NCBI GenBank assembly: GCA_030252795.1
Contig: CP127080.1
Span: 2,993,501 to 3,057,500 of the forward strand
Origin: Porticoccaceae bacterium LTM1
GTDB taxonomy: Bacteria; Pseudomonadota; Gammaproteobacteria; Pseudomonadales; Porticoccaceae
DNA length: 64,000 nucleotides
Direction of reading: 5' to 3'
Position numbers and translations under genes: made by a program. The notes under the pieces were generated by a model. The model saw only the letters and a program-made list of their open reading frames with translations, was not told where the DNA came from and did no database searches. Positions 557 through 15,769 of this stretch are shown one piece after another; within the stretch, counting starts at the first letter, position 1; every line of letters starts with the position of its first letter.

Positions 557-586
557 TAGCTATTGCCTGTACCTATCCAACTATAG

Positions 587-610
587 GACGGCCAGCTACC
601 CATCGCACCC
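587..610 (-). promoter_or_regulatory. Putative sigma-specific promoter of cassette C
   Basis: On the minus strand GGGTG (606-610) is followed after 15 nt by CGTC (587-590), about 30 nt upstream of the cassette C sigma gene. The spacing equals that of the cassette A promoters (GGGTG, 15 nt, CGTG). CGTC is a common ECF -10 core. With only one copy in the window this is weaker than the paired motifs of A and B. Confidence 0.4.
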
Positions 611-683
611 TACCTTTACTCAATAATTTTAAAGGCTTCTCTACAAGAACTACCTCGAAAGGCCATACGCGGTCGTTGTACAT

Positions 684-743: not shown

Positions 744-1901
744 CTACTCCTGGAAGTATGACTCCAACTTCTCATCCAGTTTCCACTCTCGTAGCCCTAC
801 ACCCTGAATCACACCCTCCGAATCAATCAGGAAGTTCGCGGGGATTCCCTGAATAGCGTAGTCTTTGACATATTGATTAGCCCAGCCGTTATCAATTAGC
901 AGATTAAGCCATGGCACTTTCTCCTCTTCACTGGCAACCAGCCAGTCATCCCTGTCTTCATCCAGAGAAACTGCATAAATCTCAAAACCTTTATCTTTAT
1001 ATTTTTCGTAGGCCTTTTTTAAGTGAGGAAACTCACCACGGCAAGGGCCACACCAGGAAGCCCAGAAGTCAAGCAAAACCAGTTTATTTTTTTCAACCAC
1101 CTCTGACAACAAAACATCTTTCCCGTCAATATCATAGGCTGTAACGGGTTTATAGGTTTTTCCCTTCGAAACAGACTCTCTAGCTTTTTCTTCTTCAATC
1201 CACTTCTCAAGACTTTCTCTATATTCTATAGCAGATTGATTTCCGCCAAGATCTTTCTCAAGTTCAGACACCATCGAAATTCTTTGACGAACATCAAAGC
1301 GGTTCCAATCCTGGTTTTTCATTAAAGAAAGGAGTCTCACTAAGGGCGACTGATCTTCTCTGAACAATTTTTCTGTATGAGAATTAACAATATCACTAAC
1401 TTTTTTACTGGCCTCATTACTTTTACTTCGGGCACTTTTAACAGCCTCTTCATCCATCATATCCAGATCAGTGAATACTTCTTTATTCACTTTTTTGCTG
1501 TTTTTATAAGCTGAAATATATTCAGGGTTTTTCCGATAGCCATAAATCTTATTGTTAATATCTCCGCCATCAACAATTGGACCAATATCTGTCCAGACAA
1601 CCTGATACTTATCATTTTCCAGTATCATTTCTATATTAAACTGCGATATTGATATTGTTGCCTTTGCCGGCTGATCAATAGAGCCAGAACCCGTAAACTC
1701 TCCGTCTTCTATATCACTTTTCGCGATTAGTTTATTGCCATCATAAAAAATGGATACTGAATCAGCTTTAACCCCCTCAGCCAATGATCCATGAATCATA
1801 AATCCATCAGACTCTGAACAAGCTGACAATGAAATTAACACGGTTATTGCAAAAGCAATGAACTTGGCAAGATTAATCGCCACAAACTTCTTACTGCTCA
1901 T
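744..1901 (-). CDS. DUF4369-like/TlpA thioredoxin-family lipoprotein (cassette B)
   Basis: Predicted periplasmic membrane-anchored thiol-disulfide oxidoreductase of 385 residues. The N-terminus carries a signal peptide with a lipobox-like LSAC ending at Cys28. Residues about 33-120 form a beta-rich segment with the DUF4369 pattern (dG.F.gsG, ILEND). A helical charged middle follows. The C-terminal 130 residues are a TlpA/ResA thioredoxin domain with FWASWCGPCRGEF (Cys284, Cys287) and the cis-Pro loop GIPANF. The ATG at 1901 is preceded by GGGAG at 7 nt. DUF4369 plus thioredoxin is the layout typical of Bacteroidetes proteins and uncommon in Proteobacteria. The gene is 55 bp after the receptor gene with a terminator hairpin between, so it is probably co-transcribed by partial read-through. 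The substrate is unknown; reduction of an imported disulfide-containing ligand, or maturation of the receptor, are inferences. Confidence 0.85.
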   Translation of the reverse strand: MSSKKFVAINLAKFIAFAITVLISLSACSESDGFMIHGSLAEGVKADSVSIFYDGNKLIAKSDIEDGEFTGSGSIDQPAKATISISQFNIEMILENDKYQVVWTDIGPIVDGGDINNKIYGYRKNPEYISAYKNSKKVNKEVFTDLDMMDEEAVKSARSKSNEASKKVSDIVNSHTEKLFREDQSPLVRLLSLMKNQDWNRFDVRQRISMVSELEKDLGGNQSAIEYRESLEKWIEEEKARESVSKGKTYKPVTAYDIDGKDVLLSEVVEKNKLVLLDFWASWCGPCRGEFPHLKKAYEKYKDKGFEIYAVSLDEDRDDWLVASEEEKVPWLNLLIDNGWANQYVKDYAIQGIPANFLIDSEGVIQGVGLREWKLDEKLESYFQE

Positions 1902-1956: not shown

Positions 1957-4900
1957 TTAAAAATCAAATGACTTTGTAATATCAAAATAAACAACTCGCC
2001 CACGAGAGCTGACCCTATTGGCGATATAGCCTACGGAATTGTCAACAAACGGGAAATCAGGCTTAAACAGGTTCCTGGCTCCCAGTTGCATTTTGACACC
2101 ACTCATCAATCCAGATAATGCTGGTGACTGATAGCCAACCTGCAAATCAACTGTTGTATAAGACGGACTGGTTCGTCTTGGATTTGCATTTGGAATAAAG
2201 TCATTATAAATCGTAGCTCTGGCTGAAGCCGGATCTATCACTTTGTGACTTGAAGTGTGGTGTGCAATTGCAGTTACGGAATAATCCCCGTAAGCCCAGT
2301 TCAAGGACAAGTTTCCTGCCCAGCGGCTCACACCATACTCACTGTCAGCCAGTTCTATTTTTGGTGATTCATCAATAACCCGGTGACTCAACTCCAGATT
2401 TCGTACGGCATTAAATGCCAATTGCCACGCACCAAAGTCTGTGTCTAACTCATAGCTCGCACGAAAATCGATTGTTTCCGATTTGCGCCCTGAGAAGTTG
2501 ATTTGGCGGGTATCAAGTACCATCACGTCGCCAGAAACCCGAAATACATCGGGAAGACTATCAATGTGCTGCGACAGGAATCCGAAATCCGCACCAAAGC
2601 CGGGAGTACCGATATAGTTTTCAAACTCTGTGCGGCTGTAAGTCACACCCAGTTCCAGCTCCGGCAAAATAGAGGGTGTCCAGTCAAATCCGTAAGTTAA
2701 TGTCTCGGCATTTTGAGGTTCAAGATCGGGATTCGGCCCCATCAGCCTTACAATGCTGTTTACACCATCCGGCACAACACCACCTTGCAGCGCATAATAG
2801 AGCGCACCATCCATAGATCGTGATGTGCCAAACTGCTGTGATGGCTGAGGTGTAAGGAAGGACTCACCCCATGTGGCACGGAAACGCAAATCAGAAGTGG
2901 GCTTCCAGCTTAGTGTTACCTGCGGGTCAGTGCTACTGAATGAGCGCTTCAAGGTAGTTGCCGGCTGTGTAACATACTGTGCACCAACCGGTACGCCAAG
3001 CAGTTCCTCAAGATCAATACCAGGTGTTGCTATAGAAACGCCATTGTCATAGCGAGACTGGCCCTGCTGATCAATACTTTCATGACGTACTGCCAATGTC
3101 ATTACCAGCTCTTCTGCCCAAGCTTTATCAGTCAACAGGGGTACGCGCATTTCACCAAAAAATGCTTTAACATCCCGCTCGGTAGCCTGTGCCAACAACC
3201 CTTCAAACCCCGGAACATTTCCATGCTCTTCTTTACGTAGCTGCAAGCCAGCTACCACGGACACATCCCCTGCTGGCAGTGAGAATAAATCACCATTTAC
3301 TGTGGCTTCAAAACTGTGCACATCAGAATCAAAATCATTGATGAATTGTTCTACGAGACTACTAAGCAATTCAACGTTATGTGCAACAATTACCGGATCA
3401 GTTCCATCTCCAAATACATTCAACTGATTTAATACCGGGAATACTCGCAACTCTGCGGTATCATCACCAAAACCAAAGGTGCCTGTTAAATCACTCAGAT
3501 AAACTGACTGTCCTTTTTCCTTACTGTAGGCATAGTCAAGGTTAAAGGTCCAACCACTGGCAAAAGGCAAGTCACCTTGGAGACCCATGCTGGCTTGCAA
3601 ACTATCCTGCTCTTGTTTATTACTGAGCTCCATCTGGGAAAATTCATTTTTGAAGCTGTATCCAACCAAAACATCGCGATTGAAATTATTGTATGGGTTA
3701 CTTTCAGGAATGTAGGCAAGGCGCTCATAGGTCAAGAAGTTGAACGCAAACACATCTGGCTGCCAATTTTCAGCGTTTTCCTGTTTTGTCAGGCCAACAT
3801 CAAAAGAAAACACCATACCGTTGGTGAGATCCTGTTCCCCTGCCAATCGTATAGACTTGCTTTCGGCTTCAGGGCCAATATTAAAACGCTCGTATACAGA
3901 GCGATCACCACTCATGCCCGACAACAGGTCTGCTTCATCCAGAGCGGTGCCATCCTGCCCTTCAGGGATCAGTCCAACCTCATAAAATGCCGGCACAATA
4001 CTGGCGAGATAAGCTTCAAATGGGCTCGATGCATCAATGGTGAAAAGTGGTTCATACACAACACCGGGCTGGCCTATGCCCCTACGACGCGCATTAATAC
4101 CGCCGCGATCACTGAAATCACCCACCCCAGATGGCCCTACATGAATAAAGCTGTTGATATCAGCAGGCTTATTCTCGGCTACATCTGCACTGATAGTTGC
4201 AAAACCGCTATCCCAATGAAATGTGTAGGCGCCATTCAAACGACTTATATCACCACCAGAACTGGACTTCTCATGGCGCGCCTGCAAAACGGCGCCCTTA
4301 TAGTCTTTACGCAATATAATGTTGACTACACCGGCTACGGCATCAGCACCATAAATCGCTGAAGCACCATCTGTCAGGATTTCAACACGCTCAACCTGTG
4401 ACAATGGAATAGATGAAATATCGGTAAAACCACCTGACGATTGTGCTGATGTCGCTTTACGACGACCATTAATCAGCACTAAAGTAGCTCGGCTTCCCAA
4501 GCCCCTGAGGTTGATTGAGGATGCACCAACAGGCGATACAGGGCTTCCACCAAATGCGCCAAACTCCCCCTGACCCAGATCCACACTTTCAGAGGTAATA
4601 CTGGAGAGGTTTTGCGGCAACCGACGAAAAACATCTTCTAATGAAGAGTAACCGCCCTGCTCCAACTTTTGACGATCCAGTGTAATTACTGGCGAAGCAG
4701 GATTGTGACCTTTCAAGCGGGTACCTGTGACTATAACTTCTTCGACGAATTCTTCTTCATCTTTGATGCTGGTTTCTTCCAGCTTTTTGATGACAACGGA
4801 ATCTTCTGACAGAAACTCATACTTCAATCCTGAATCTGCAAGCAAAGCATTTAATGCAGACTCTAATGTATAGGATCCGGAAATTCCTTTAAGAACCTTA

Positions 4901-5112
4901 CCGGCAGATAGATTTGACGGTACAACTATCTGGACACCAGACATTTTTGACAACTTCAAAAGTGCCGAATCCGCGCTTTGTGAAGATATATCCAGATCCA
5001 GTGTTTTTCCATCAGTAGCAAAAACAGACCCACCAGAAATAGCAAGAGACAATGCTGCTGATATACTCAATACCAATGCTTTGTGCTTGAATATGGCTTT
5101 ACCTAAATTCAT
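1957..5112 (-). CDS. TonB-dependent receptor with STN signalling domain (cassette B)
   Basis: Outer-membrane active transporter of 1051 residues that also signals. Order: signal peptide (to about residue 32, SGGSVFA), STN domain (about 35-110, ending YEFLSEDSVVIKK), TonB-box-like stretch EEVIVTGTRL, plug domain (about 140-270, with INLRGLGSRATLVLINGRR and IYGADAVAGVVNIIL), then a 22-strand-type barrel ending in aromatic Phe (FDITKSFDF). The STN domain is known from FecA-type receptors to contact FecR and trigger the sigma factor on ligand binding. The upstream promoter motif matches that of the cassette B sigma gene. The STN is very similar to that of the cassette A receptor while the barrels differ, suggesting duplication and ligand divergence. 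The ligand cannot be told from sequence. Confidence 0.93.
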   Translation of the reverse strand: MNLGKAIFKHKALVLSISAALSLAISGGSVFATDGKTLDLDISSQSADSALLKLSKMSGVQIVVPSNLSAGKVLKGISGSYTLESALNALLADSGLKYEFLSEDSVVIKKLEETSIKDEEEFVEEVIVTGTRLKGHNPASPVITLDRQKLEQGGYSSLEDVFRRLPQNLSSITSESVDLGQGEFGAFGGSPVSPVGASSINLRGLGSRATLVLINGRRKATSAQSSGGFTDISSIPLSQVERVEILTDGASAIYGADAVAGVVNIILRKDYKGAVLQARHEKSSSGGDISRLNGAYTFHWDSGFATISADVAENKPADINSFIHVGPSGVGDFSDRGGINARRRGIGQPGVVYEPLFTIDASSPFEAYLASIVPAFYEVGLIPEGQDGTALDEADLLSGMSGDRSVYERFNIGPEAESKSIRLAGEQDLTNGMVFSFDVGLTKQENAENWQPDVFAFNFLTYERLAYIPESNPYNNFNRDVLVGYSFKNEFSQMELSNKQEQDSLQASMGLQGDLPFASGWTFNLDYAYSKEKGQSVYLSDLTGTFGFGDDTAELRVFPVLNQLNVFGDGTDPVIVAHNVELLSSLVEQFINDFDSDVHSFEATVNGDLFSLPAGDVSVVAGLQLRKEEHGNVPGFEGLLAQATERDVKAFFGEMRVPLLTDKAWAEELVMTLAVRHESIDQQGQSRYDNGVSIATPGIDLEELLGVPVGAQYVTQPATTLKRSFSSTDPQVTLSWKPTSDLRFRATWGESFLTPQPSQQFGTSRSMDGALYYALQGGVVPDGVNSIVRLMGPNPDLEPQNAETLTYGFDWTPSILPELELGVTYSRTEFENYIGTPGFGADFGFLSQHIDSLPDVFRVSGDVMVLDTRQINFSGRKSETIDFRASYELDTDFGAWQLAFNAVRNLELSHRVIDESPKIELADSEYGVSRWAGNLSLNWAYGDYSVTAIAHHTSSHKVIDPASARATIYNDFIPNANPRRTSPSYTTVDLQVGYQSPALSGLMSGVKMQLGARNLFKPDFPFVDNSVGYIANRVSSRGRVVYFDITKSFDF

Positions 5113-5171
5113 AACCCAACCCTTTGTTATAAAAAGTTATTGCTCTACCAAAAATTATCGAGCAATAACTA

Positions 5172-5197
5172 GACGCACAAAGAATTCAGATCCCACG
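5172..5197 (-). promoter_or_regulatory. Cassette B ECF promoter, receptor copy
   Basis: On the minus strand CGTGGGAT (5190-5197), 12 nt, then TGCGTC (5172-5177), about 60 nt upstream of the receptor ATG. The same two blocks with the same 12-nt spacing precede the cassette B sigma gene. This fits -35 and -10 elements recognised by that sigma factor. Confidence 0.75.
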
Positions 5198-5222
5198 CTT
5201 TTTCGCTGTTTAAAAATCAAAA

Positions 5223-6272
5223 TTAATTCTGTTTTGATTTATTTATAACTACCCGATCAAAGTAATGGGTTATTTTTATAGGCATTGAACCTTCCAAACC
5301 TTGAAGGGCACGATCAATTCTCTGAACATCAAATACAGCCGATACTTTCAAATCCACAATATCAGAATCTTCAATCAGTATTTTTTTTCCGCTGTAACGG
5401 TTTAACTCTGCCACAACCTGATAGAGTGGTTGACGGGTAAACTCAAGACTCCCACTCCGCCACATTGCGATGTTCCCAGCATCGTTAGTCACATATCCCT
5501 CAATTACTTGATGCACAGGGTCAACTTCGGCTGTCCAACCTGCGGCCACCCGTATCTGGCCAGATTTTTTGAGCCTGATAAATCCACCCTGATTCAGGTC
5601 GCCACTATCCAGTAAAGCTGCATTACTGGATGGCGCTTCTTCTGATGAATGGATAGCAACCATCCCCTCAGTGACTGAAATTTGAAAATTTTCTGGATAT
5701 TTACGTACGTTAAACTCTGTACCCAGAACAGTCACTGTGCGCATGCCCACATCCACACTGAATGGCTTCTCCTCATCACGAGCCACATCAAAGTAAGCCT
5801 CGCCTCGTGTCAATATGACTCTTCGGCTGTCTGCCGCCATAGTGACCAGCACCTCTGTACCGGTGTTAAGGCTCAATTGGGAGCCGTCGGACAACTCAAC
5901 CGTTTTCACTTCGCCTATACGTGTTGTATAGCGAGACATTTCGGCGCTATCTGTTAGCGGCTCCTTTTGCATCCAAAAAACAGTGGCCACCGCCAGCATT
6001 ACAGATGCAGATGCCAACATTCCTTTATAAGGCAAAGATTTTTTCCTGGCATGCTCGAAATCCACCAGCGATAACAGCTCTTCATCGTCAGATAGCGCTT
6101 CAATATCTGCCATCAGGTGGAAGCTTGTAACTAACTCTTCCCGGTAGTCACTATCCTCACTGTCCCAAGGGTTCAGCGCTTCGGCCTGATTCGCCGACAA
6201 TCGGCCCGACCAAAGCCTGGCCAAACCTCGCGAAGCCTTTACTCTTGCATGACTTTTCATCAGATGAATCAT
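5223..6272 (-). CDS. FecR-family anti-sigma regulator (cassette B)
   Basis: Inner-membrane regulator of 349 residues that relays the receptor signal to the sigma factor. Residues 1-80 are the cytoplasmic DUF4880-like domain (ASRGLARLWSGRLSANQAEALNPW). A single membrane segment lies near 85-100 (MLASASVMLAVATVFW). The periplasmic FecR domain follows (RYTTRIGEVKTVELSDGSQLSLNTGTEV, then VTVLGTEFNVR). The C-terminal 70 residues are an STN-like module (LYQVVAELNRYSGKKILIED). The ATG at 6272 has GGAG at 6 nt and overlaps the sigma stop as ATGA, indicating translational coupling. It may either inhibit or activate the sigma factor, as FecR relatives do both. Confidence 0.92.
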   Translation of the reverse strand: MIHLMKSHARVKASRGLARLWSGRLSANQAEALNPWDSEDSDYREELVTSFHLMADIEALSDDEELLSLVDFEHARKKSLPYKGMLASASVMLAVATVFWMQKEPLTDSAEMSRYTTRIGEVKTVELSDGSQLSLNTGTEVLVTMAADSRRVILTRGEAYFDVARDEEKPFSVDVGMRTVTVLGTEFNVRKYPENFQISVTEGMVAIHSSEEAPSSNAALLDSGDLNQGGFIRLKKSGQIRVAAGWTAEVDPVHQVIEGYVTNDAGNIAMWRSGSLEFTRQPLYQVVAELNRYSGKKILIEDSDIVDLKVSAVFDVQRIDRALQGLEGSMPIKITHYFDRVVINKSKQN

Positions 6273-6856
6273 CTTCTGCTCCCTCCCTGCTCCTGACCCT
6301 TGTTTACCGCCTCAAGCGTCTTTTTAAGTTTGGCAACAGCTCTGGCGACAAATGCTTCAACCTGCCTTTCCGTGACACTCATTACGACTGATATTTCTTT
6401 ATAATTCATGTGCTTAAAGCGACTTAAAATGAATGCCGTTCGCCAGGTGGGTTTTAAAGCTGTGATTGCTGCTTTCACTGTCGACAGTTGCTCTTGGGCC
6501 ACTACCTCTACTTCAGGAGACAACTCATAAACTGTGCCCGCCAAATCATTGCTCTTGGCAGCACAGTACTCCCTACGGATCGCCTTGCGACGCTCCATAT
6601 CAACGATCAGGTTATTCGCGGCAGTAAACAGATAGGCGCGATTTTGCCTTGAATCCACCTTTTGTCGCCCTTCAAGGTCTTCCTTACGGGCCAGTCGGGT
6701 AAAGACCTCTTGAACGATGTCATCTATATCTGTCTTACTGCGAACCCGCCCCAGCAAAAATGACCGAAGAGCGTCTCCGTGGTCACGATACAGTTGTTCC
6801 AGAAACTGCTTATCAGCCTCCGAACGACGCAAATTCAAATTAACCACCCTGCTCAT
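6269..6856 (-). CDS. ECF sigma factor (FecI-like) of cassette B
   Basis: Sigma factor of 195 residues with region 2 (DIDDIVQEVFTRLARKEDLEG, YLFTAANNLIVDMERRKA) and region 4 (TWRTAFILSRFKHMNYKEISVVMSVTERQVEAFV). The ATG at 6856 is preferred over longer TTG/GTG starts because the two paralogues begin at the equivalent place and AAGG lies 6 nt upstream. It should transcribe its own gene and the cassette B receptor from the shared motif and be held by the FecR protein encoded next to it with a 4-bp overlap. Confidence 0.92.
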   Translation of the reverse strand: MSRVVNLNLRRSEADKQFLEQLYRDHGDALRSFLLGRVRSKTDIDDIVQEVFTRLARKEDLEGRQKVDSRQNRAYLFTAANNLIVDMERRKAIRREYCAAKSNDLAGTVYELSPEVEVVAQEQLSTVKAAITALKPTWRTAFILSRFKHMNYKEISVVMSVTERQVEAFVARAVAKLKKTLEAVNKGQEQGGSRR

Positions 6857-6912
6857 TTTGGCCTTGTGTACCTTCACTATAGATGCTTCAGACAAGTCTT
6901 CTCACATTATTG

Positions 6913-6938
6913 GACGCACCAGGCATCAGAATCCCACG
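6913..6938 (-). promoter_or_regulatory. Cassette B ECF promoter, sigma-gene copy
   Basis: On the minus strand CGTGGGAT (6931-6938), 12 nt, TGCGTC (6913-6918), 57 nt upstream of the chosen sigma start. It is the partner of the motif at 5172-5197 and predicts autoregulation. Confidence 0.72.
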
Positions 6939-7162
6939 GTTTCTATGTGTAATAATTTACAAGCGTATCAACAGCTGGGTATTACTATAGATTCTACGAC
7001 CACACTTTCTACCAAAGCCCATAAAGCTTTAGCAGTGACTGATGAAGCTTTATAGATGAAGTGTTTATCAATGTGCACCCGAAACACTCAAGAATAGGCG
7101 TGGTTCAAAAGCCATGGCGGCGAAGAGGACAGCTTTAGAACTTATAACTTTATGTTAACTTT
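6939..7162. other. Intergenic stretch between cassette B promoter and the IS element
   Basis: No gene with recognisable similarity or a good ribosome binding site is seen. A 36-codon plus-strand frame (6945-7055) has no support. Together with 8367-8548 this is the original spacer between cassettes A and B, now split by the insertion. Confidence 0.5.
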
Positions 7163-7237: not shown

Positions 7238-7504
7238 ATGAAGAAGTCGAAGTTTTCGGATCACCAGATTCTGGCGATACTGAAGCAACATGAGGCTGGC
7301 GTTTCCGTTGCCGAATTAGCTCGTGAACACGGTGTCAGCACAGCCCTGATTTATCAATGGCGTTCAAAATATGGCGGTATGGACGCCGCCTTGATGAAGC
7401 GCCTCAAAGAGCTGGAAGCAGAGAATGCCCGCCTGAAGAAGATGTATGCCGAGGAGCGCATCAAAGCAGAGCTTCGCCAAGAGGCCCTCGAGGGAAAGCT
7501 GTAA
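7238..7504 (+). CDS. IS3-family transposase OrfA
   Basis: DNA-binding subunit of 88 residues: helix-turn-helix (SKFSDHQILAILKQHEAGVS, LAREHGVSTALIYQWRSKYGG) followed by a leucine-zipper-like coiled coil (LKELEAENARLKKMYAEE). The ATG at 7238 has AAGGAG at 6 nt, so an upstream in-frame GTG at 7217 is not used. The heptamer G GGA AAG (7492-7498) lies one codon (CTG) before the stop and would shift ribosomes -1 into OrfB to make the OrfAB transposase. Confidence 0.93.
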   Translation: MKKSKFSDHQILAILKQHEAGVSVAELAREHGVSTALIYQWRSKYGGMDAALMKRLKELEAENARLKKMYAEERIKAELRQEALEGKL

Positions 7505-8322
7505 GGCCATCCTGCCGCAAAGCAATGGCCCAAAAGGCTGTTCAGCGGGATGGCATCAGCATCCGTCTAGCCTGTGCGACCTTCGGCATTAGTGAGACTT
7601 GCTACCGCTATCAGGCAAAGCTCTCATGTGAGAACCAACAGATTGCAGGCTGGCTATTAAGTTTGACAGAGGCCCACAGACGCTGGGGGTTTGGCTTGTG
7701 TTTCCTTTACCTGCGGAATGTAAAAGGTTTTCCCTGGAATCATAAGCGGGTTTACCGTATTTATCGGGAGCTGGAGCTAAATTTACGAATAAAGCCCAAA
7801 CGACTTATCAAACGCGACCATCCTGGCGAACTTGATGTGCCCACAGCGCCTAATCAGGTCTGGTCGATGGACTTTATGAGCGATGGGCTAATTGATGGTC
7901 GCTCATTGCGTACGTTCAATGTACTGGACGACTACAATCGTGAGGGCTTAGGCATTGAGGTTGACCTCTCTTTGCCAAGCAGCAGAGTGATACGAAGCCT
8001 TGAGCAGATTATTGAATGGCGAGGGAAGCCAATGGCGATACGTTGTGATAACGGCCCGGAGTATATCTCTCAGAAGCTAATTGACTGGGCAACCGAGCAA
8101 CGTATTACTCTGCTATACATCCAACCTGGCAAGCCAACTCAGAATGCGTACATAGAGCGATTTAACCGAACCGTTCGGCATGAATGGTTGGATATGCACC
8201 AGTTCGAGAACGTTGCTCATGCCCAGCTATTGGCCACCCAATGGTTATGGCAATACAATAACGAAAGACCAAATACCGCCATTGGCGGTGTGCCGCCAAG
8301 GCAATTAATGTTGGCGGCTTAA
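7498..8322 (+). CDS. IS3-family transposase OrfB (DDE integrase domain), made by -1 frameshift
   Basis: Catalytic half of the transposase. The frame continues from the slippery site as AVRPSCRKAMAQKAVQ and holds an HTH_21-like segment and an rve integrase core. The DDE residues are visible in VWSMDFMSD, IRCDNGPEY and NAYIERFNRTVRHEW, and the C-terminus has the usual YNNERPNTAIGGVPPRQ. The open frame runs back to 7357 but the overlapping part is an OrfA shadow. No stop or frameshift inside. Confidence 0.92.
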   Translation, partial: AVRPSCRKAMAQKAVQRDGISIRLACATFGISETCYRYQAKLSCENQQIAGWLLSLTEAHRRWGFGLCFLYLRNVKGFPWNHKRVYRIYRELELNLRIKPKRLIKRDHPGELDVPTAPNQVWSMDFMSDGLIDGRSLRTFNVLDDYNREGLGIEVDLSLPSSRVIRSLEQIIEWRGKPMAIRCDNGPEYISQKLIDWATEQRITLLYIQPGKPTQNAYIERFNRTVRHEWLDMHQFENVAHAQLLATQWLWQYNNERPNTAIGGVPPRQLMLAA

Positions 8323-8548: not shown

Positions 8549-9853
8549 TTATAATTTCTTGGAAAGACCATTTTCCTTAGTTTTTGTATCAAATATTTCT
8601 TTAATCTTTTTAATCAGCGCTTCACCACGTAGATTTCGATCGACAATAACTCCAGAATCCGCATCCACTAGATAATTAACTGGAATACTATGTATACCGT
8701 ATAGTTTTGCAACTGGACCATCAAATCCCTCTAAGTCGCTGGTATTGATCCAGAACAGCCCTTCCTCTTTTGATGCTTCGTGCCATTCATTTAGATCCTC
8801 ATCTAATGAAAACGAGAAAATATCAAATCCTTTTTTATGATATTTATTGTAAGCTTCTTTTAAGTACGGAATTTCTTCCCGACATGGACCACACCAGGAC
8901 GCCCAAAATTCTACGAGGACATATTTTTTCCCTGAAATATAGTCATTCAACCTAACTTCTTGACCTGATATCTGCTCTGCACTAAAGTTTTTAATAGGTA
9001 CACCAACAACCATCTCGAGGCTTCTCTGAACCTTCAATTTAGACGATTCTACTTCGGCAATAAATTGTTCAAGCGGCGGATAGTTAGGTAACTCAGCTGA
9101 CAATGCCTGTAAATCTCTAATCTTTTTTTCCAAAGACAACAGGTCTCTCCTCTCCACCAAGGTCCCTATTTTTAGCGCCAACATTCGTAGCAAAGGGTCT
9201 TTATTTGAAGAAATCGAATCCAGAAAATTTTGCTTATGTTGATTTTTTTGCAAAAATAAATCCTTGAGAATGGAATTCAGCTCTTCTTTACGCTCTTCGG
9301 AGACCTCTTCGGAATTATACTCTTCTTTGATCAGTTTAATTTTCTCTTCAACCGAACGACAAGCAGCACCCTGTTGCCAGTTATCATAAAAAAATTGGTT
9401 GTATTGGCCACCAGTTACCTCTCTCGAATTCAGATCTACTTCCACTAGACCTGGTTCCAATATAAGCTCAACCCCAGTTACATTTTTTTCTTGACCGTTC
9501 TGAGTAGAGATAACGTACAAAAAAGCTTTATCAACCATTCCTGCCGACACAAGAATCGACACCTTGCCATCAACAACCTCCGTTTCCGCAATCACGGTAA
9601 CACCGTCCTCACTTTTCTCATCCTGGTAGTTATAACGGATCAATCTTGCTATTAACTCCTCCTTATTGAAGCCTTTCTTGCTCATCTCACTGGTCATTTC
9701 AATGCTAGCCTTCAAGACCATAATGGCATCGCCCACTTCAACGTCAGCCATTTCATTGCTTACCTGCTGAACGTCCAAATTCTTCGAAACCACCCTCTGA
9801 TCGCAACCTGTAAGCACCAATATTAGAGCAATCATACTGATTATTATCTTCAT
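8549..9853 (-). CDS. DUF4369-like/TlpA thioredoxin-family lipoprotein (cassette A)
   Basis: Periplasmic lipid-anchored oxidoreductase of 434 residues. Signal peptide with lipobox LTGC (Cys17), a beta-rich N-terminal region with a DUF4369-like stretch (VELILEPGLVEVDLNSREVTGG), a charged helical middle (about 160-290), then a TlpA-type domain with FWASWCGPCREEI (Cys321, Cys324) and cis-Pro loop SIPVNY. The ATG at 9853 is chosen because GGGGAGG lies 5 nt upstream; the longer TTG frame would read through that site. It is the counterpart of the gene at 744-1901 with the same gene order. A 214-bp gap and a strong terminator separate it from the receptor, so it may have its own promoter. The reducing partner and substrate are unknown. 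Confidence 0.85.
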   Translation of the reverse strand: MKIIISMIALILVLTGCDQRVVSKNLDVQQVSNEMADVEVGDAIMVLKASIEMTSEMSKKGFNKEELIARLIRYNYQDEKSEDGVTVIAETEVVDGKVSILVSAGMVDKAFLYVISTQNGQEKNVTGVELILEPGLVEVDLNSREVTGGQYNQFFYDNWQQGAACRSVEEKIKLIKEEYNSEEVSEERKEELNSILKDLFLQKNQHKQNFLDSISSNKDPLLRMLALKIGTLVERRDLLSLEKKIRDLQALSAELPNYPPLEQFIAEVESSKLKVQRSLEMVVGVPIKNFSAEQISGQEVRLNDYISGKKYVLVEFWASWCGPCREEIPYLKEAYNKYHKKGFDIFSFSLDEDLNEWHEASKEEGLFWINTSDLEGFDGPVAKLYGIHSIPVNYLVDADSGVIVDRNLRGEALIKKIKEIFDTKTKENGLSKKL

Positions 9854-10013
9854 CACCGCCTCCCCAATCAATCAACACACGGATTTAGCACACCGCCATG
9901 GAAATAATGTCAAATTTGAACCCTGCTTCTGTTTTGCAGAAACATCTAGAGGTAAGGCATCTATAAGTGTTGGCTCTTTCGAGTTAAAAATATTTATGCC
10001 TTTAACCGAAACT

Positions 10014-10067: not shown

Positions 10068-13067
10068 TTAGAAAGTAAACGCTTTCGTTACCTCCGCATA
10101 GATTGCCCGACCGCGCGGGTCAACCCGCGACGGATCCCAATCGGGCCCACCATAATTATTCAGGAACGGAAATCTATTATTAAGCAGGTTTCTCACACCG
10201 GCATTTACCTTCCAACCGGTATCTGCAAAACTATAGGTACCGTTAAGATCAAGGGTCCAATAGCTGCGGATCTTTTTGCCATCTTGCGGGGCAACTCTGC
10301 CAGAATAACTGCTGGAGTAGTTGTACTGCATGGTGGCAGACATATCACCATCACTCCAGTTGAGATAACTGCTCACTTTCAGTCGATCCGGGCCAAAGGT
10401 GGTGGCATCTATATATTGTGGTTCCCCAACTGCCGAGAACTTCTGCACGACTTCTGACGTATACGTACCGCCAGTACCCACTCTAAAAGCACCGAGATCC
10501 GTATCAAAGTCATAGATTACTGTGAAGTCCCACGCCTTGCTGCTGTGTTCAGCAATATTCACCGTGCCATAAACGTAAATGGTATTTAGCGAACCATCCG
10601 CATTAAATATCGCCGTACCCGGCACAGACAAGTATCCCAATGGATCCGTTTTCAAAGCGTTATCACCCGAGTCAAAGCGCCCATCGATATTAATATCACT
10701 GTAATTCACGCTGAGGCTAAGCCCTTCCATTGAACCGCTTGGAATCCAATCAAAACCAATAGAGATATTATCGGACAGTTCCGGCTCTATATTTGGGTTG
10801 TTCTTGAATATCCGAATATATGCATCAACATTATTGGTAAATGGATTCAATATCGTCGCTATATCCTCTGACTCGTCAAATGCCCGGAACATCCTTGACA
10901 GGGTAGGCACCTGGAACGACTCACCCCAGCTTGCACGGAACTTGAAGTCATCCGTCACATACCAGCTCAAGTCTACTTTGGGGGAAGTATTTGAAAAGCT
11001 ACGTGTCTCAGTTGGCCCGCCAATCTTAAAACGGCCAGTGAAATCATATCCGTCATAGCGCGCTGCCAGCTTCAAATCCAGGGAGCGCACCCAAGGCAAA
11101 CTATTACCCTCATTAATCAACGGGATACCCAACTCAACGTATGCGGATTCTACCTCTCGCGACAATTCTGATTGTCCATCCGAATCATTAGCCTCATCAA
11201 ACCATTCCCCAACATCCACTTCCTCATCACGCATTTCTATCCCTGTCGCCAGCGCCACATCGCCTCCTGGCAGAGAGAACAGGGTACCGTTTGCTGATAC
11301 GTCCCAAGATTCCGTTGTAAAGCTTACCCCACTCAAAGCCTCTTCCATCGTCGGAAACAGAGCATCAATCTCGGCAGGGTCATTGGCACTGCCATTACCA
11401 AACAGATTGATATCCCCTGAGAGAGCGGCATCAAATACTCTACTCATAACTGCAGACTGGCTAAAGTATGTGCTATCGGTTTTTGTATCCGTGTATGAAA
11501 TTTCAGCAGACCAACTATCCGTCAAGTCCACATTGAACCCTAATGTAGCCACCTCCATCTTCGACTCTGTCGTGACTGGAGGGCGTGAAGCACCCCCTTC
11601 CGTATATTCACTTACTGGCAAATAACCCAATAATAAAGACCTCTCAAAAATAGAGGCCGGCAAGAAACGACTCGCCAAATAGTCATACTGCTCCTGAAGG
11701 CTGTCTGGTAAATCCGTGTAATACGGACTTTGAGTAAAAAGAGAGCCCGTCACAAACAGAAGTGGAAAGCTCGCAGCAGACTGCGATTCTGTTCTGGTAA
11801 AGTTGGTTTCGGCAAAGACTTCCACTCTGTCGGTAAGTTCCTGACTGCCAGAGAATCGGTATGAGGTAATTTCTGTCTCTGTAGTACCCGATTTTGCGAG
11901 CTCAGCCTGCGTGTCAACCGGTATGATATTGTCTGGACTGAGTTCAGATAGGCCATTGGTGCCATCATCGTCTTGAGGCAACGCGCCAAACTTAACAAAG
12001 GCAGCACTTCCCGTAGTGAATAACCTCTTAATGTCTAAACCACTTATCACGCCCGGTTGCCCAAAAGCGCTAACGCGGTTATCGCTCCCGCCTCTTGGCC
12101 GGTGGTCATCGGTCACATAACCCGCTTTACGGGTATTCATACCATCGGTGTTTCTATGGTTGAGCGTCAGCATGGCATGACCGCTACCCCAGTTTGTGCC
12201 TATTAGCTGCTCTAACTGGTAGTTGTCGCCATCATGGGCACTGTTTTCATAACGGATCGAGGTTTCCGAACCAACGTAGTCCTTACTCAAAATAAAGTTA
12301 ACAACACCCGCTTGGGCATCCGCACCATAAATGGCCGAAGCACCATCCAGAACAATATCCACCCGCTCAATAGCCGCAAAAGGGATGCCATTCAGGTTGA
12401 CCGTACCATTTTGAAAAGTAGCTGATTGCGCATAGCGACGGCCATTAACGAGCACTAGTGTAGAGCCGCTGCCAAGACCACGCAGGTCAAACGCCGTCTC
12501 CCCCTGACTCAAGCGAGAAACACGGTCGGGATCAAGAGTGGTGGCAGAGTTGACGCTATTGTTGTTCTGCGGAATATAGCGCAACAAATCTTCAACAGAG
12601 CCTATACCCAGCCTTTTGATATCTGCCTTGGTAATACTCTGAGTGAATGAGCCAGTGCTTATATTCTTCAAGCGAGTACCAGTGACAACCACTTCCTCAA
12701 CTTCTTCTATCGCCTGATTCTGGGAATTTTCATCATCCTGCTCTTTAATTACTACCGAATCTTCTGACAGAAATTCATATACCAAGCCTGAGTTTCGCAG
12801 CATTGCACTTAAGGCTGACTCTAATGTGTACTCACCATTTACTTTAGCTGTTCGAAATTTTTTACCAATCTCCTGGCTGAAAATTATCTGTGCACCAGAC
12901 TTTTCTGCCAATTCGAGTAACGCTTTACCCGCTATAGATTCGCTGACATCAAGCTTAAAAATCTCAATTTCAGCAGCATTGATTACTTGTGAAGCAGAAA
13001 GCATTAATGCCGATGCAACACCAAGCACCAGTCGTTTAGTTTTGAATGTATTTGAACGGATGGCCAT
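10068..13067 (-). CDS. TonB-dependent receptor with STN signalling domain (cassette A)
   Basis: Outer-membrane transducer/transporter of 999 residues. Signal peptide (RLVLGVASALMLSASQVINAAE), STN domain with the segment YEFLSEDSVVIK also found in cassette B, TonB-box-like EEVVVTGTRL, plug (FDLRGLGSGSTLVLVNGRR, IYGADAQAGVVNFIL) and a long barrel ending VTKAFTF. The ATG at 13067 is chosen because AGGAGGT lies about 9 nt upstream and the signal peptide follows at once; a longer frame adds 19 residues. Its promoter motif (13129-13164) matches that of the cassette A sigma gene, so ligand binding should raise its own synthesis. Ligand unknown. Confidence 0.93.
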   Translation of the reverse strand: MAIRSNTFKTKRLVLGVASALMLSASQVINAAEIEIFKLDVSESIAGKALLELAEKSGAQIIFSQEIGKKFRTAKVNGEYTLESALSAMLRNSGLVYEFLSEDSVVIKEQDDENSQNQAIEEVEEVVVTGTRLKNISTGSFTQSITKADIKRLGIGSVEDLLRYIPQNNNSVNSATTLDPDRVSRLSQGETAFDLRGLGSGSTLVLVNGRRYAQSATFQNGTVNLNGIPFAAIERVDIVLDGASAIYGADAQAGVVNFILSKDYVGSETSIRYENSAHDGDNYQLEQLIGTNWGSGHAMLTLNHRNTDGMNTRKAGYVTDDHRPRGGSDNRVSAFGQPGVISGLDIKRLFTTGSAAFVKFGALPQDDDGTNGLSELSPDNIIPVDTQAELAKSGTTETEITSYRFSGSQELTDRVEVFAETNFTRTESQSAASFPLLFVTGSLFTQSPYYTDLPDSLQEQYDYLASRFLPASIFERSLLLGYLPVSEYTEGGASRPPVTTESKMEVATLGFNVDLTDSWSAEISYTDTKTDSTYFSQSAVMSRVFDAALSGDINLFGNGSANDPAEIDALFPTMEEALSGVSFTTESWDVSANGTLFSLPGGDVALATGIEMRDEEVDVGEWFDEANDSDGQSELSREVESAYVELGIPLINEGNSLPWVRSLDLKLAARYDGYDFTGRFKIGGPTETRSFSNTSPKVDLSWYVTDDFKFRASWGESFQVPTLSRMFRAFDESEDIATILNPFTNNVDAYIRIFKNNPNIEPELSDNISIGFDWIPSGSMEGLSLSVNYSDINIDGRFDSGDNALKTDPLGYLSVPGTAIFNADGSLNTIYVYGTVNIAEHSSKAWDFTVIYDFDTDLGAFRVGTGGTYTSEVVQKFSAVGEPQYIDATTFGPDRLKVSSYLNWSDGDMSATMQYNYSSSYSGRVAPQDGKKIRSYWTLDLNGTYSFADTGWKVNAGVRNLLNNRFPFLNNYGGPDWDPSRVDPRGRAIYAEVTKAFTF

Positions 13068-13128
13068 ATCGACCCTACCTCCTCTATGTGAGCTTTTTGG
13101 AGTTGCCTTTTTCGATTTTGGCAACTAC

Positions 13129-13164
13129 CTAACTACACGAACACTCACATCAAACACCCTGAGT
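13129..13164 (-). promoter_or_regulatory. Cassette A ECF promoter, receptor copy
   Basis: On the minus strand ACTCAGGGTG (13155-13164), 11 nt, then TGTTCGTGTAGTTAG (13129-13143). Both blocks and the spacing are identical to the motif upstream of the cassette A sigma gene (14928-14963). The motif begins 26 bp past the FecR stop and lies about 62 nt upstream of the receptor ATG. Confidence 0.82.
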
Positions 13165-13189
13165 CACTTTGCCAAATAACCAAACTCAA

Positions 13190-14251
13190 TCATCTATTAC
13201 TGTTATCCTTAACGCTCTTGCCAACCAAAATTGTTCGATCAAAATACTGAATCACTTTAATTGGCAATGTTTTTTCCAGACTGGCCAAAGCGAGATCAAT
13301 ACGATCAATTCGCACGGCAGCGTATATTTTCAGATCCATAATAGCTGCGTCTTCAATCAGGATTTTCTTACCGCTGTATCTATTGAGCTCCCTCACCACT
13401 ACCGATAGAGGCTCTTCATCAAACCGCAACTGCCCGGATCGCCACCCCTGATATTTATCAATATCATCAGAGGCATATCCCACTAGCGAATCATTTTCTA
13501 CATCTACTTCTGCCACCCAACCGGCGTTAATTCGAACCTGTTGGGGGGATTTAACTTTCGCCGCATTACCCGTAGCAACACTCAATGAAAGAGCAGTAGG
13601 CACTATGTCTGCACCATTTTTGTGTAGAGAAATTTCTCCATCGAGTACAGCTATGGTGAGTTTTTCTGGTGTTTTTCTTATATTGAACTCGGTTCCAAGG
13701 ACCGTGACTGAGCGCCCATCCAGATCAATGGTAAATGGACGTAAGGCATCTTTAGAGACTGCGAAATAAGCTTCCCCCCGCTTGAGGTGGAGTTGCCGTT
13801 TACTCTCACTCATCGTCACTTGCAGCTCCGTTCCGGTGTTGAGCGTCACCACACTGCCATCATCCAGCTCTACGGTTTTTTGCTCGCCGACTCGAGTGAC
13901 ATAACGAAGACCCGCTGACACTGCCACGTCAGTCGGCCACCACTGAACCCAGCTGAATATTCCGCTTATAACCAATACAAGTAATGCTGCAATGGCCCAA
14001 CCCTGCCCGAAGCGTTTCGACATACGTGAGTCCGCAAAAGCCGCTTCAGTAATTTCGACAATATCCGGATCATCTGCCAGCCTTTCCATATCCGCCAGTC
14101 CATGGGTAATATCCAGAAAATCTTGCTGATACTCTGCCTCGTCCTGTGTCCAGGCAGCAATTTTGACCGCCTCGTCCGACGTTAATTGCCCGGAATACAG
14201 CCGGGCAACCTGACGAGCGGCACGGTATTTTGAGGATAAGTTTTTAGCCAT
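13190..14251 (-). CDS. FecR-family anti-sigma regulator (cassette A)
   Basis: Single-pass inner-membrane regulator of 353 residues. Cytoplasmic DUF4880-like domain (YRAARQVARLYSGQLTSDEAVKIAAW), one membrane segment near 85-105 (WAIAALLVLVISGIFSWVQWW), periplasmic FecR domain (RYVTRVGEQKTVELDDGSVVTLNTGTEL, VTVLGTEFNIR) and a C-terminal STN-like module (VVVRELNRYSGKKILIEDAAI). The ATG at 14251 is preferred because AAGGA is 9 nt upstream; an ATG at 14260 touches that site directly. The start overlaps the sigma stop by 8 bp, so the two are translationally coupled. Confidence 0.92.
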   Translation of the reverse strand: MAKNLSSKYRAARQVARLYSGQLTSDEAVKIAAWTQDEAEYQQDFLDITHGLADMERLADDPDIVEITEAAFADSRMSKRFGQGWAIAALLVLVISGIFSWVQWWPTDVAVSAGLRYVTRVGEQKTVELDDGSVVTLNTGTELQVTMSESKRQLHLKRGEAYFAVSKDALRPFTIDLDGRSVTVLGTEFNIRKTPEKLTIAVLDGEISLHKNGADIVPTALSLSVATGNAAKVKSPQQVRINAGWVAEVDVENDSLVGYASDDIDKYQGWRSGQLRFDEEPLSVVVRELNRYSGKKILIEDAAIMDLKIYAAVRIDRIDLALASLEKTLPIKVIQYFDRTILVGKSVKDNSNR

Positions 14252-14843
14252 CGTTTTCATTCCTTGTTAAACCTCGCATGGCATGTTGGGCATCCCTGAC
14301 CCGAACCAGAGCCTGGGTCATATAATTTTCCACCTGCTTGACCGTTACACCCATATGTTTGGCAATCTGGGTATAGCTCATGAATTTGAAGCGATTCAAA
14401 ACAAATGCCTGACGCCAGGCTGGCTTCATCTCCTGAATAACCTGCTTGAGCATGGAAAGGTCCCGCTCGGCGGAAGCAGCGGCTTCCGGGGTAATTTCCT
14501 GCACTTGATCACAGTCTTCCAACTGGTTGGTGTAAGTGCGTTGCAGCGCCTTGCGTCGCTCTATATCCACAATCAGGTTATTAGCCATAGTGAAGATATA
14601 AGCGCGATTACGTGCATGGCTATCAGCCATTTTTGTTTGCAGCCCCTCCATTTTTACCAGCCGCAAGAATACTTCCTGCACAATATCGTCGGGATCATCT
14701 TCTGCTCCGGTGCGACCAAAGAGGAATGAACGCAAAGCATCACCGTGCGCTTTGAACAGTTGTTCAAGCACCTTCTCACGCGCTTTGTGATGACGGCCAT
14801 GAAAATCGAGCACGTTGTCTTCTTTACGGCTCATCGCTCTCAT
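14244..14843 (-). CDS. ECF sigma factor (FecI-like) of cassette A
   Basis: Sigma factor of 199 residues: region 2 (DDPDDIVQEVFLRLVKMEGLQ, YIFTMANNLIVDIERRKALQ) and region 4 (AWRQAFVLNRFKFMSYTQIAKHMGVTVKQVENYM). Start at 14843 follows the alignment with the cassette C sigma (MRLMRKKSDVIDL). An ATG at 14900 would add 19 residues and is possible, as a strong GAGGAGGT lies 17 nt before it. The preceding motif at 14928-14963 is shared only with the cassette A receptor, so the gene should be autoregulated. Confidence 0.9.
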   Translation of the reverse strand: MRAMSRKEDNVLDFHGRHHKAREKVLEQLFKAHGDALRSFLFGRTGAEDDPDDIVQEVFLRLVKMEGLQTKMADSHARNRAYIFTMANNLIVDIERRKALQRTYTNQLEDCDQVQEITPEAAASAERDLSMLKQVIQEMKPAWRQAFVLNRFKFMSYTQIAKHMGVTVKQVENYMTQALVRVRDAQHAMRGLTRNENDG

Positions 14844-14927
14844 TGAGTTTCTGCACCTGTGACTCTCTAAGATTAGCTTGCTTAGCCTCTCTTTTCGCAT
14901 CGGCGGCCCCGAATAGACCTCCTCTAG

Positions 14928-14963
14928 CTAACTACACGAACAGAACCGTCATTCACCCTGAGT
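14928..14963 (-). promoter_or_regulatory. Cassette A ECF promoter, sigma-gene copy
   Basis: On the minus strand ACTCAGGGTG (14954-14963), 11 nt, TGTTCGTGTAGTTAG (14928-14942). Twin of 13129-13164. Confidence 0.82.
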
Positions 14964-15040: not shown

Positions 15041-15769
15041 ATGCGAATTAGCCGTATTTATCTTGACCAGCCATTGAGTATTGGCCTCGAATTTGCTCTC
15101 AGCCCTGAAGCTGCTCGTCATCTGGTAACCGTATTACGCGCTAAAGCTGGCACCGAGCTCATACTGTTCAACGGACAGGGGGGTGAATATCGGGCCATCC
15201 TGACAGAGGTTGCCAACAAAAAGGCCAATGTGCGTGTTGATTCGTTTGATGACACCGATCGCGCGTCCAACCTGAAGATCCACCTGGGTATTGGCATGTC
15301 AAAAGGTGATCGGTTTGATTTGGTGGTCCAGAAGGCCACCGAGCTGGGCGTATCTGAAATCACCCCTCTCTACACCGAGCGCACCGAGGTGAAATTAAAG
15401 GGCGATCGCGTTGATAAAAAACTGCGCCATCTTCAGCAGGTTGCTATCAGCGCCTGCGAGCAGTGCCAACTCAATCGCGTACCGGTTGTAAATCAGCCTG
15501 TTGCTCTCAAAGACTGGCTTGGGAATGTTGATGCGGAACAGAAATTCGTTCTTCACCACCGCAGTGACAAGGCATTAAAGGATTATGAGGAAGTGCCAGC
15601 ATCCGTTGCTTTGGCGATTGGACCAGAGGGGGGGTTGTCTGACGCCGAGATAGACGCCTGTCGGCAGAGTGGTTTTGAGCACCTGACCATGGGCCCAAGG
15701 GTGTTGCGAACAGAAACAGCACCGCTCACCGCTATCAGTCTGTTGCAGTATGTTTGGGGAGATTTTTAA
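15041..15769 (+). CDS. rsmE: 16S rRNA (uracil(1498)-N(3))-methyltransferase
   Basis: SPOUT-superfamily enzyme of 242 residues that methylates U1498 of 16S rRNA. N-terminal PUA-like domain (MRISRIYLDQPL, HLVTVLRAKAGTELILFNGQGGEY) and C-terminal knotted SPOUT domain with family motifs (KGDRFDLVVQKATELGVSEITPL, AIGPEGGLSDAEID, GPRVLRTETAPLTAI). Full length with no defect. It is divergent from the cassette A sigma gene and forms the boundary between the receptor array and ordinary chromosome. Confidence 0.97.
   Translation: MRISRIYLDQPLSIGLEFALSPEAARHLVTVLRAKAGTELILFNGQGGEYRAILTEVANKKANVRVDSFDDTDRASNLKIHLGIGMSKGDRFDLVVQKATELGVSEITPLYTERTEVKLKGDRVDKKLRHLQQVAISACEQCQLNRVPVVNQPVALKDWLGNVDAEQKFVLHHRSDKALKDYEEVPASVALAIGPEGGLSDAEIDACRQSGFEHLTMGPRVLRTETAPLTAISLLQYVWGDF

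Follow-up and report, generated by a model that had tools for sequence, protein, structure and literature searches.

The window (the whole 64,000-nt stretch of DNA that was analysed) holds two cassettes, A and B, and a third (locus L055) that straddles its left edge, with its receptor box lying beyond the window. Cassette A runs in the order sigma, FecR, TonB receptor, thioredoxin-like protein (Table 1). The sigma protein matches Pfam regions 2 and 4_2 only, with a region 4.2 recognition helix at approximately residues 184-198 (GVTVKQVENYMTQAL), and its best NCBIfam models are those for FecI (PRK09651/NF041727), under the curated cut-off; its FecR partner matches the NCBIfam FecR model, also under cut-off, and a hydrophobic segment past residue 80 can be seen in the sequence. 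Between cassettes A and B is an ORF which by appearance resembles an insertion-sequence transposase of the integrase type.

Table 1. Features of cassettes A and B, the third cassette, and neighbouring genes (positions in the window).
Feature	Coordinates	Strand	Parts	Evidence or comment
Cassette A, ECF sigma factor, FecI-like, 218 aa	14244..14900	(-)		Pfam Sigma70_r2 + r4_2
Cassette A, FecR-like transmembrane sigma regulator	13190..14260	(-)		Pfam FecR (PF04773) + FecR_C (PF16344)
Cassette A, TonB-dependent receptor, N-terminal STN signalling domain	10068..13067	(-)		Pfam STN, Plug, barrel (PF07660, PF07715, PF00593)
Thiol-disulfide (TlpA/ResA-like) protein behind receptor A	8549..9871	(-)		Pfam AhpC-TSA/Redoxin; NCBIfam ResA-like
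Cassette A, box before sigma gene	14928..14963	(-)	-35 block ACTCAGGGTG 14954-14963; spacer 14943-14953; -10 block TGTTCGTGTAGTTAG 14928-14942	Exact two-block match, unique in genome, same-cassette test
Cassette A, box before TonB receptor gene	13129..13164	(-)	-35 block 13155-13164; spacer 13144-13154; -10 block 13129-13143	Exact two-block match, unique in genome, same-cassette test
Hairpin in presumed receptor mRNA leader	13099..13129		AGUUGCC-N12-GGCAACU	Folds better than shuffles (z -2.5)
Divergent RNA methyltransferase gene	15041..15769
Cassette B, ECF sigma factor	6269..6895	(-)		Start codon uncertain
Cassette B, FecR-like regulator	5223..6272	(-)
Cassette B, TonB-dependent receptor with STN domain	1957..5112	(-)		Pfam
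Cassette B, box before sigma gene	6910..6939	(-)	CCGTGGGAT-N12-TGCGTCCAA
Cassette B, box before receptor gene	5169..5198	(-)	GCGTGGGAT-N12-TGCGTCTAG
Third cassette (L055), box before sigma gene	584..614	(-)	GGTAGGGTG-N13-GCCGTCCTA
Thioredoxin-fold gene behind a receptor	744..1901
ORF between cassettes A and B	7357..8322			Transposase-like by appearance

The initial annotation described two blocks, identical in sequence and in their 11-nt spacing, upstream of both the sigma gene and the receptor gene of cassette A, and this is confirmed: both sites are 36-mers of the form ACTCAGGGTG-N11-TGTTCGTGTAGTTAG, and the 11 spacer bases are unlike between them. The two-block word is expected 0 times in shuffled windows, and a search of the 3,132,333-base genome, the check that had been proposed for the pair, found just these two sites rather than many unrelated ones (22 specified bases, ≤3 mismatches; 0 control matches). 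The sigma-side box lies within a 140-base gap between the sigma ORF and a divergent RNA methyltransferase gene, with the sigma ATG (14900) 38 bases after the CGT, and the receptor-side box is flanked by the FecR stop and the receptor ATG at 13067. We note a hairpin directly behind the receptor-side -10 block, in the presumed leader of the receptor mRNA (Table 1).

The pair had been thought absent from cassette B, which is correct for the words of cassette A; however, cassette B owns a pair (CCGTGGGAT...TGCGTC in short form), and it is therefore not without the feature. A cassette A box and its nearest foreign box are equal at 12 of 14 core positions, and for cassette B the figure is just 9 of 14.

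Such pairs are not special to cassette A. The 3.13-Mb genome of this marine bacterium has 43 FecR genes (loci L048-L090), and 42 of these loci are sigma-FecR cassettes, in which a TonB receptor is almost always present; the exceptions among the 43 are L051, in which no sigma was recognised, and L069, in which there is no receptor. FecR genes number 20 and 6 in the sister genomes and 0-11 in other family members, so that the count of 43 represents a strong lineage-specific expansion. A putative two-block promoter common to the sigma and receptor genes is present in at least 32 cassettes, most with their own variant, and the two-block model gives a consensus over cassettes of approximately kTAGGGTg, N14-15, CGTnTA; a clear pair was not found in 10 of the 42 cassettes. 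In many cassettes (among loci L048-L089) the receptor gene is directly followed by a thioredoxin-fold gene, coding for a TlpA/ResA-like protein or a long-tailed thioredoxin, and two of these lie within the window (Table 1).

We compared the upstream DNA of each sigma gene with that of the receptor gene in every cassette, using one fixed two-block score and, whether the partner was own or foreign, an equal search space. Own pairs score a mean of 16.4 of 19, as against 14.5 (sd 0.73) for foreign pairs, and none of 10,000 partner permutations reached the observed own-pair mean; scores of ≥16 are seen for 32 of the 42 own pairs and for ~7% of off-diagonal comparisons. In this 42 x 42 comparison, the cassette A pair scores 19/19 for the blocks and 29/36 ungapped, with its own-pair score exceeding every foreign-cassette comparison in its row, and the ungapped 36-mer comparison agrees with the two-block test overall. 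The conservation profile of 32 curated pairs has exactly two blocks, with spacer and flanks near background (spacer identity is 0.34 for own pairs and 0.27 for others); its per-position values are inflated because the curated sites were chosen partly by within-pair identity, a bias that is absent from the two-block pairing and ungapped 36-mer tests. The base following CGT varies among cassettes (G in 11, T in 11, C in 6, and A in 4), yet is the same in both boxes of 30 of the 32 pairs (94%), compared with an expected match of 29% across cassettes. In 23 of the 32 sigma genes the CGT is followed at 32-49 nt by an in-frame ATG, a placing that fits a promoter.

The exact word TAGGGT-N13-17-CGTNTA alone is not enriched genome-wide (11 matches, compared with 9 for reversed controls), and 8 of the 11 matches fall within cassette boxes; the signal is thus the pairing, and not one strict consensus. 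Six of the 32 sigma-side boxes are matched equally well by another cassette's receptor box, and on sequence the insulation is therefore incomplete. As judged from the boxes, the description "private" is secure for those like the boxes of cassettes A and B, and not for all.

The relationship between the boxes and the sigma proteins provides an independent test, because the proteins played no part in the choice of sites. Across the 32 cassettes, similarity of the -35 block follows similarity of sigma region 4.2 (r=0.58), and the partial correlation with the rest of the protein removed is 0.52 (p<0.0005, with 0 of 2,000 permutations as high); relatedness among the paralogues is handled by this partial correlation only. 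No comparable correlation with the -35 block was found for region 2, the linker, or region 4.1, and the N-terminal extension has a weak, unexplained partial correlation (r=0.23, p=0.02). Ranked by mutual information with single -35 positions, the top residues include N192, V187, K188, V190, and M194 of the recognition helix, and AGGG is present in both boxes for 18 of the 23 sigmas with Lys188 versus none of the nine without it (Fisher p=7e-5, uncorrected for descent). The -10 block shows no significant correlation with region 2.3-2.4 after correction (partial r=0.14, p=0.13), and T104, N108, and A100 of that region rank near the top for the -10 block.

The pairing is repeated in two sister genomes, where 17 cassettes have own and foreign scores of 15.6 and 14.2, respectively, with none of 10,000 permutations reaching the observed value. 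Orthologous cassettes in the sister species mostly have the same variant: for reciprocal-best sigma orthologues, the box of the own orthologue ranks first of 32 in 6 of 8 sigma-side comparisons and 6 of 7 receptor-side comparisons, where first rank requires that no other box of the present genome (G000) fits better than that of the orthologue, and such retention is not seen among non-orthologues. In L074 and L092, which are orthologues in two species, the sigma-side box is CGAGTGTAG and the receptor-side box is CACGTGTAG, and the difference is kept in both; we speculate that it perhaps tunes the strength of feedback against receptor output. A single-protein scan of the named genomes found no relative, and an alignment scan gave mostly distant sigmas without a complete cassette, together with seven cassettes. 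One of two cassettes at a locus in a Woeseiaceae MAG (L112) has its own pair, TTGGGGTAT...CGTTnTACCC; this is the second cassette of the locus, and no pair was found in the first.

The boxes are promoter-like in that their two conserved blocks are parted by a spacer with almost no conservation, the -10 core is CGT, and in 23 of the 32 cassettes an in-frame ATG follows 32-49 nt downstream, and we consider it very probable that they are the -35 and -10 elements of each cassette's own FecI-type ECF sigma, autoregulated, in a set of some 42 paralogous circuits. The original proposal for cassette A, of an autoregulated ECF sigma with one linked target, thus gains support from the way in which the -35 block varies along with the recognition helix and from retention of the boxes by orthologues, although it stays a prediction from sequence. 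In the circuit that we envisage, a ligand would bind the TonB receptor, the STN domain would signal to FecR, and FecR would then free or activate the sigma. The sigma would direct RNA polymerase to the box before the receptor gene, inducing uptake and the thioredoxin-like gene behind the receptor, and to the box before its own gene, giving positive feedback. The same circuit would operate in some 42 paralogous cassettes that have in common a core of approximately TAGGGT-N14-15-CGTnTA, and because the specificity letters follow the recognition helix, the circuits are predicted to be at least partly insulated. Binding by the sigma, positive autoregulation, the signal pathway, and insulation are all inferred here, and we put at even chances the fuller proposition that at least 30 pairs of FecI-type sigma and promoter in this genome are insulated from one another and under positive autoregulation, each with its own outer-membrane receptor, in a code that is readable through the covariation of -35 and helix.

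The degree of insulation is where another reading comes closest. The AGGGT...CGT core is present in most cassettes, so cross-talk between some of them is possible, and all could have one ECF promoter type that is read by many sigmas in a cross-talking network where the private differences are minor. The six sigma-side boxes that fit foreign receptor boxes equally well and the near neighbour of the cassette A box are consistent with this, but own matches exceed foreign matches, the -35 variants track the sigma helix, orthologues retain their variants, and the cassette B box is far from any foreign one; we regard such a network as possible, with the balance clearly against it. It is somewhat less probable still that only the receptor-side box is a sigma promoter of consequence, with the sigma-side box adding minor feedback to a gene that is mainly under housekeeping or iron-regulated control, as for fec in E. 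coli. There must be some basal transcription of the sigma, and in E. coli the transcription of fecIR depends on sigma-70 under Fur control, with no autoregulation (PMC9249621); the sigma-side box nonetheless equals the receptor-side box in quality. Scans for consensus sequences, which are weak evidence, found no sigma-70-like site on the coding strand between 13040 and 15060 and no Fur-like box in the window at ≤3 mismatches.

Two conserved blocks at fixed spacing could also be half-sites for a separate DNA-binding regulator, making the boxes operators and not promoters of the cassette sigma. We find this very unlikely, as the blocks are neither repeats of one another nor a dyad, the -10 block has an ECF-type CGT core, variation in the -35 block follows the recognition helix of the adjacent sigma, and the whole window lacks the Fur-like box sought above. 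The cassettes are paralogues and the two words of cassette A are identical, as would be expected if one upstream region had recently been duplicated locally to leave a functionless relic, but spacer and flanks are near background while the blocks are identical, and the same pattern recurs in 32 cassettes and in sister species; we rejected this explanation on the spacer test and give it almost no credence. The preferred reading remains that of promoters recognised by the cognate sigmas.

Among known systems, FecI-FecR-FecA signalling (ECF05-10; ECF05-09 is now ECF243) likewise has a sigma, a FecR_C-bearing FecR, and an STN receptor in the same order, and also a separate promoter for the receptor. 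The evidence from sequence (pairing, covariation, and orthologues) that the receptor gene here would be transcribed by its cognate sigma is strong. In the E. coli model the sigma operon is under sigma-70 and Fur, whereas here a sigma-type box stands before the sigma gene instead. Control of fecIR by sigma-70 and Fur is a trait of the E. coli model and not of every family member. The present system differs further in the number of its paralogous cassettes (~42 in 3.1 Mb), in the thioredoxin-fold genes that follow many receptors, and in a ligand that is not evidently iron. The sigma gene here has the receptor's promoter, implying autoregulation, unlike fecIR, which is not autoregulated in E. coli (PMC9249621). 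FecI-like ECFs are named exceptions to positive autoregulation (PMC8103513), promoter mining across ECFs set FecI-like groups aside because of their lack of autoregulation (PMC3817407), and autoregulation is also absent in HemI, a recently studied case (PMC12772443). An autoregulated FecI-like sigma, as predicted here, departs from the literature examined; such a system may be described elsewhere, as most subscription journals lie outside our literature search.

Autoregulated ECFs, such as E. coli RpoE and those in the mining by Rhodius et al. 2013, have the same promoter before the sigma operon and the target, as is found here, with a -35 read by region 4 and a CGT-type -10. They differ in having other anti-sigma classes and typically an AAC-containing -35 (PMC8103513), as compared with the GGG-type -35 and the dozens of paralogues in one genome seen here. 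The SigI-RsgI systems of cellulolytic clostridia are similar in that one genome holds many sigma/anti-sigma paralogues, whose promoter specificities are distinct and are determined at the -35 (PMC10575876), but SigI belongs to another sigma class, has a C-terminal domain of its own, and occurs in Gram-positive hosts and without TonB receptors, and its promoters have A-tract and CGWA elements unlike those here. A SigI architecture was rejected for the cassette A sigma, which matches ECF Sigma70_r2/r4_2.

FecI-like sigmas are among the largest ECF groups, and the duplicated boxes annotate the promoter of each sigma, so that at least 32 predicted sigma/promoter pairs are available from one cell. 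Two questions are thereby open to direct testing: by what means so many paralogous sigmas (dozens) escape cross-talk, and which -35 letters are chosen by which region 4.2 residues. It also predicts the receptor controlled by each sigma, so that the wiring of each switch would be predictable from sequence, and provides a ready-made set of candidate orthogonal promoters.

Other cassette neighbourhoods, with functions read by eye, include a katG-like gene (L070) and a MoxR-type ATPase (L052 and L062). Locus L111 (G000:C1:2983153-2985047) has two exact TAGGGT-N-CGTGTA sites, 1.87 kb apart, before thioredoxin-like ORFs, both belonging to the 11 genome-wide matches of the exact word; we rejected it as a further cassette as no sigma, FecR, or receptor is present, and its sites are possibly extra target promoters outside a cassette.
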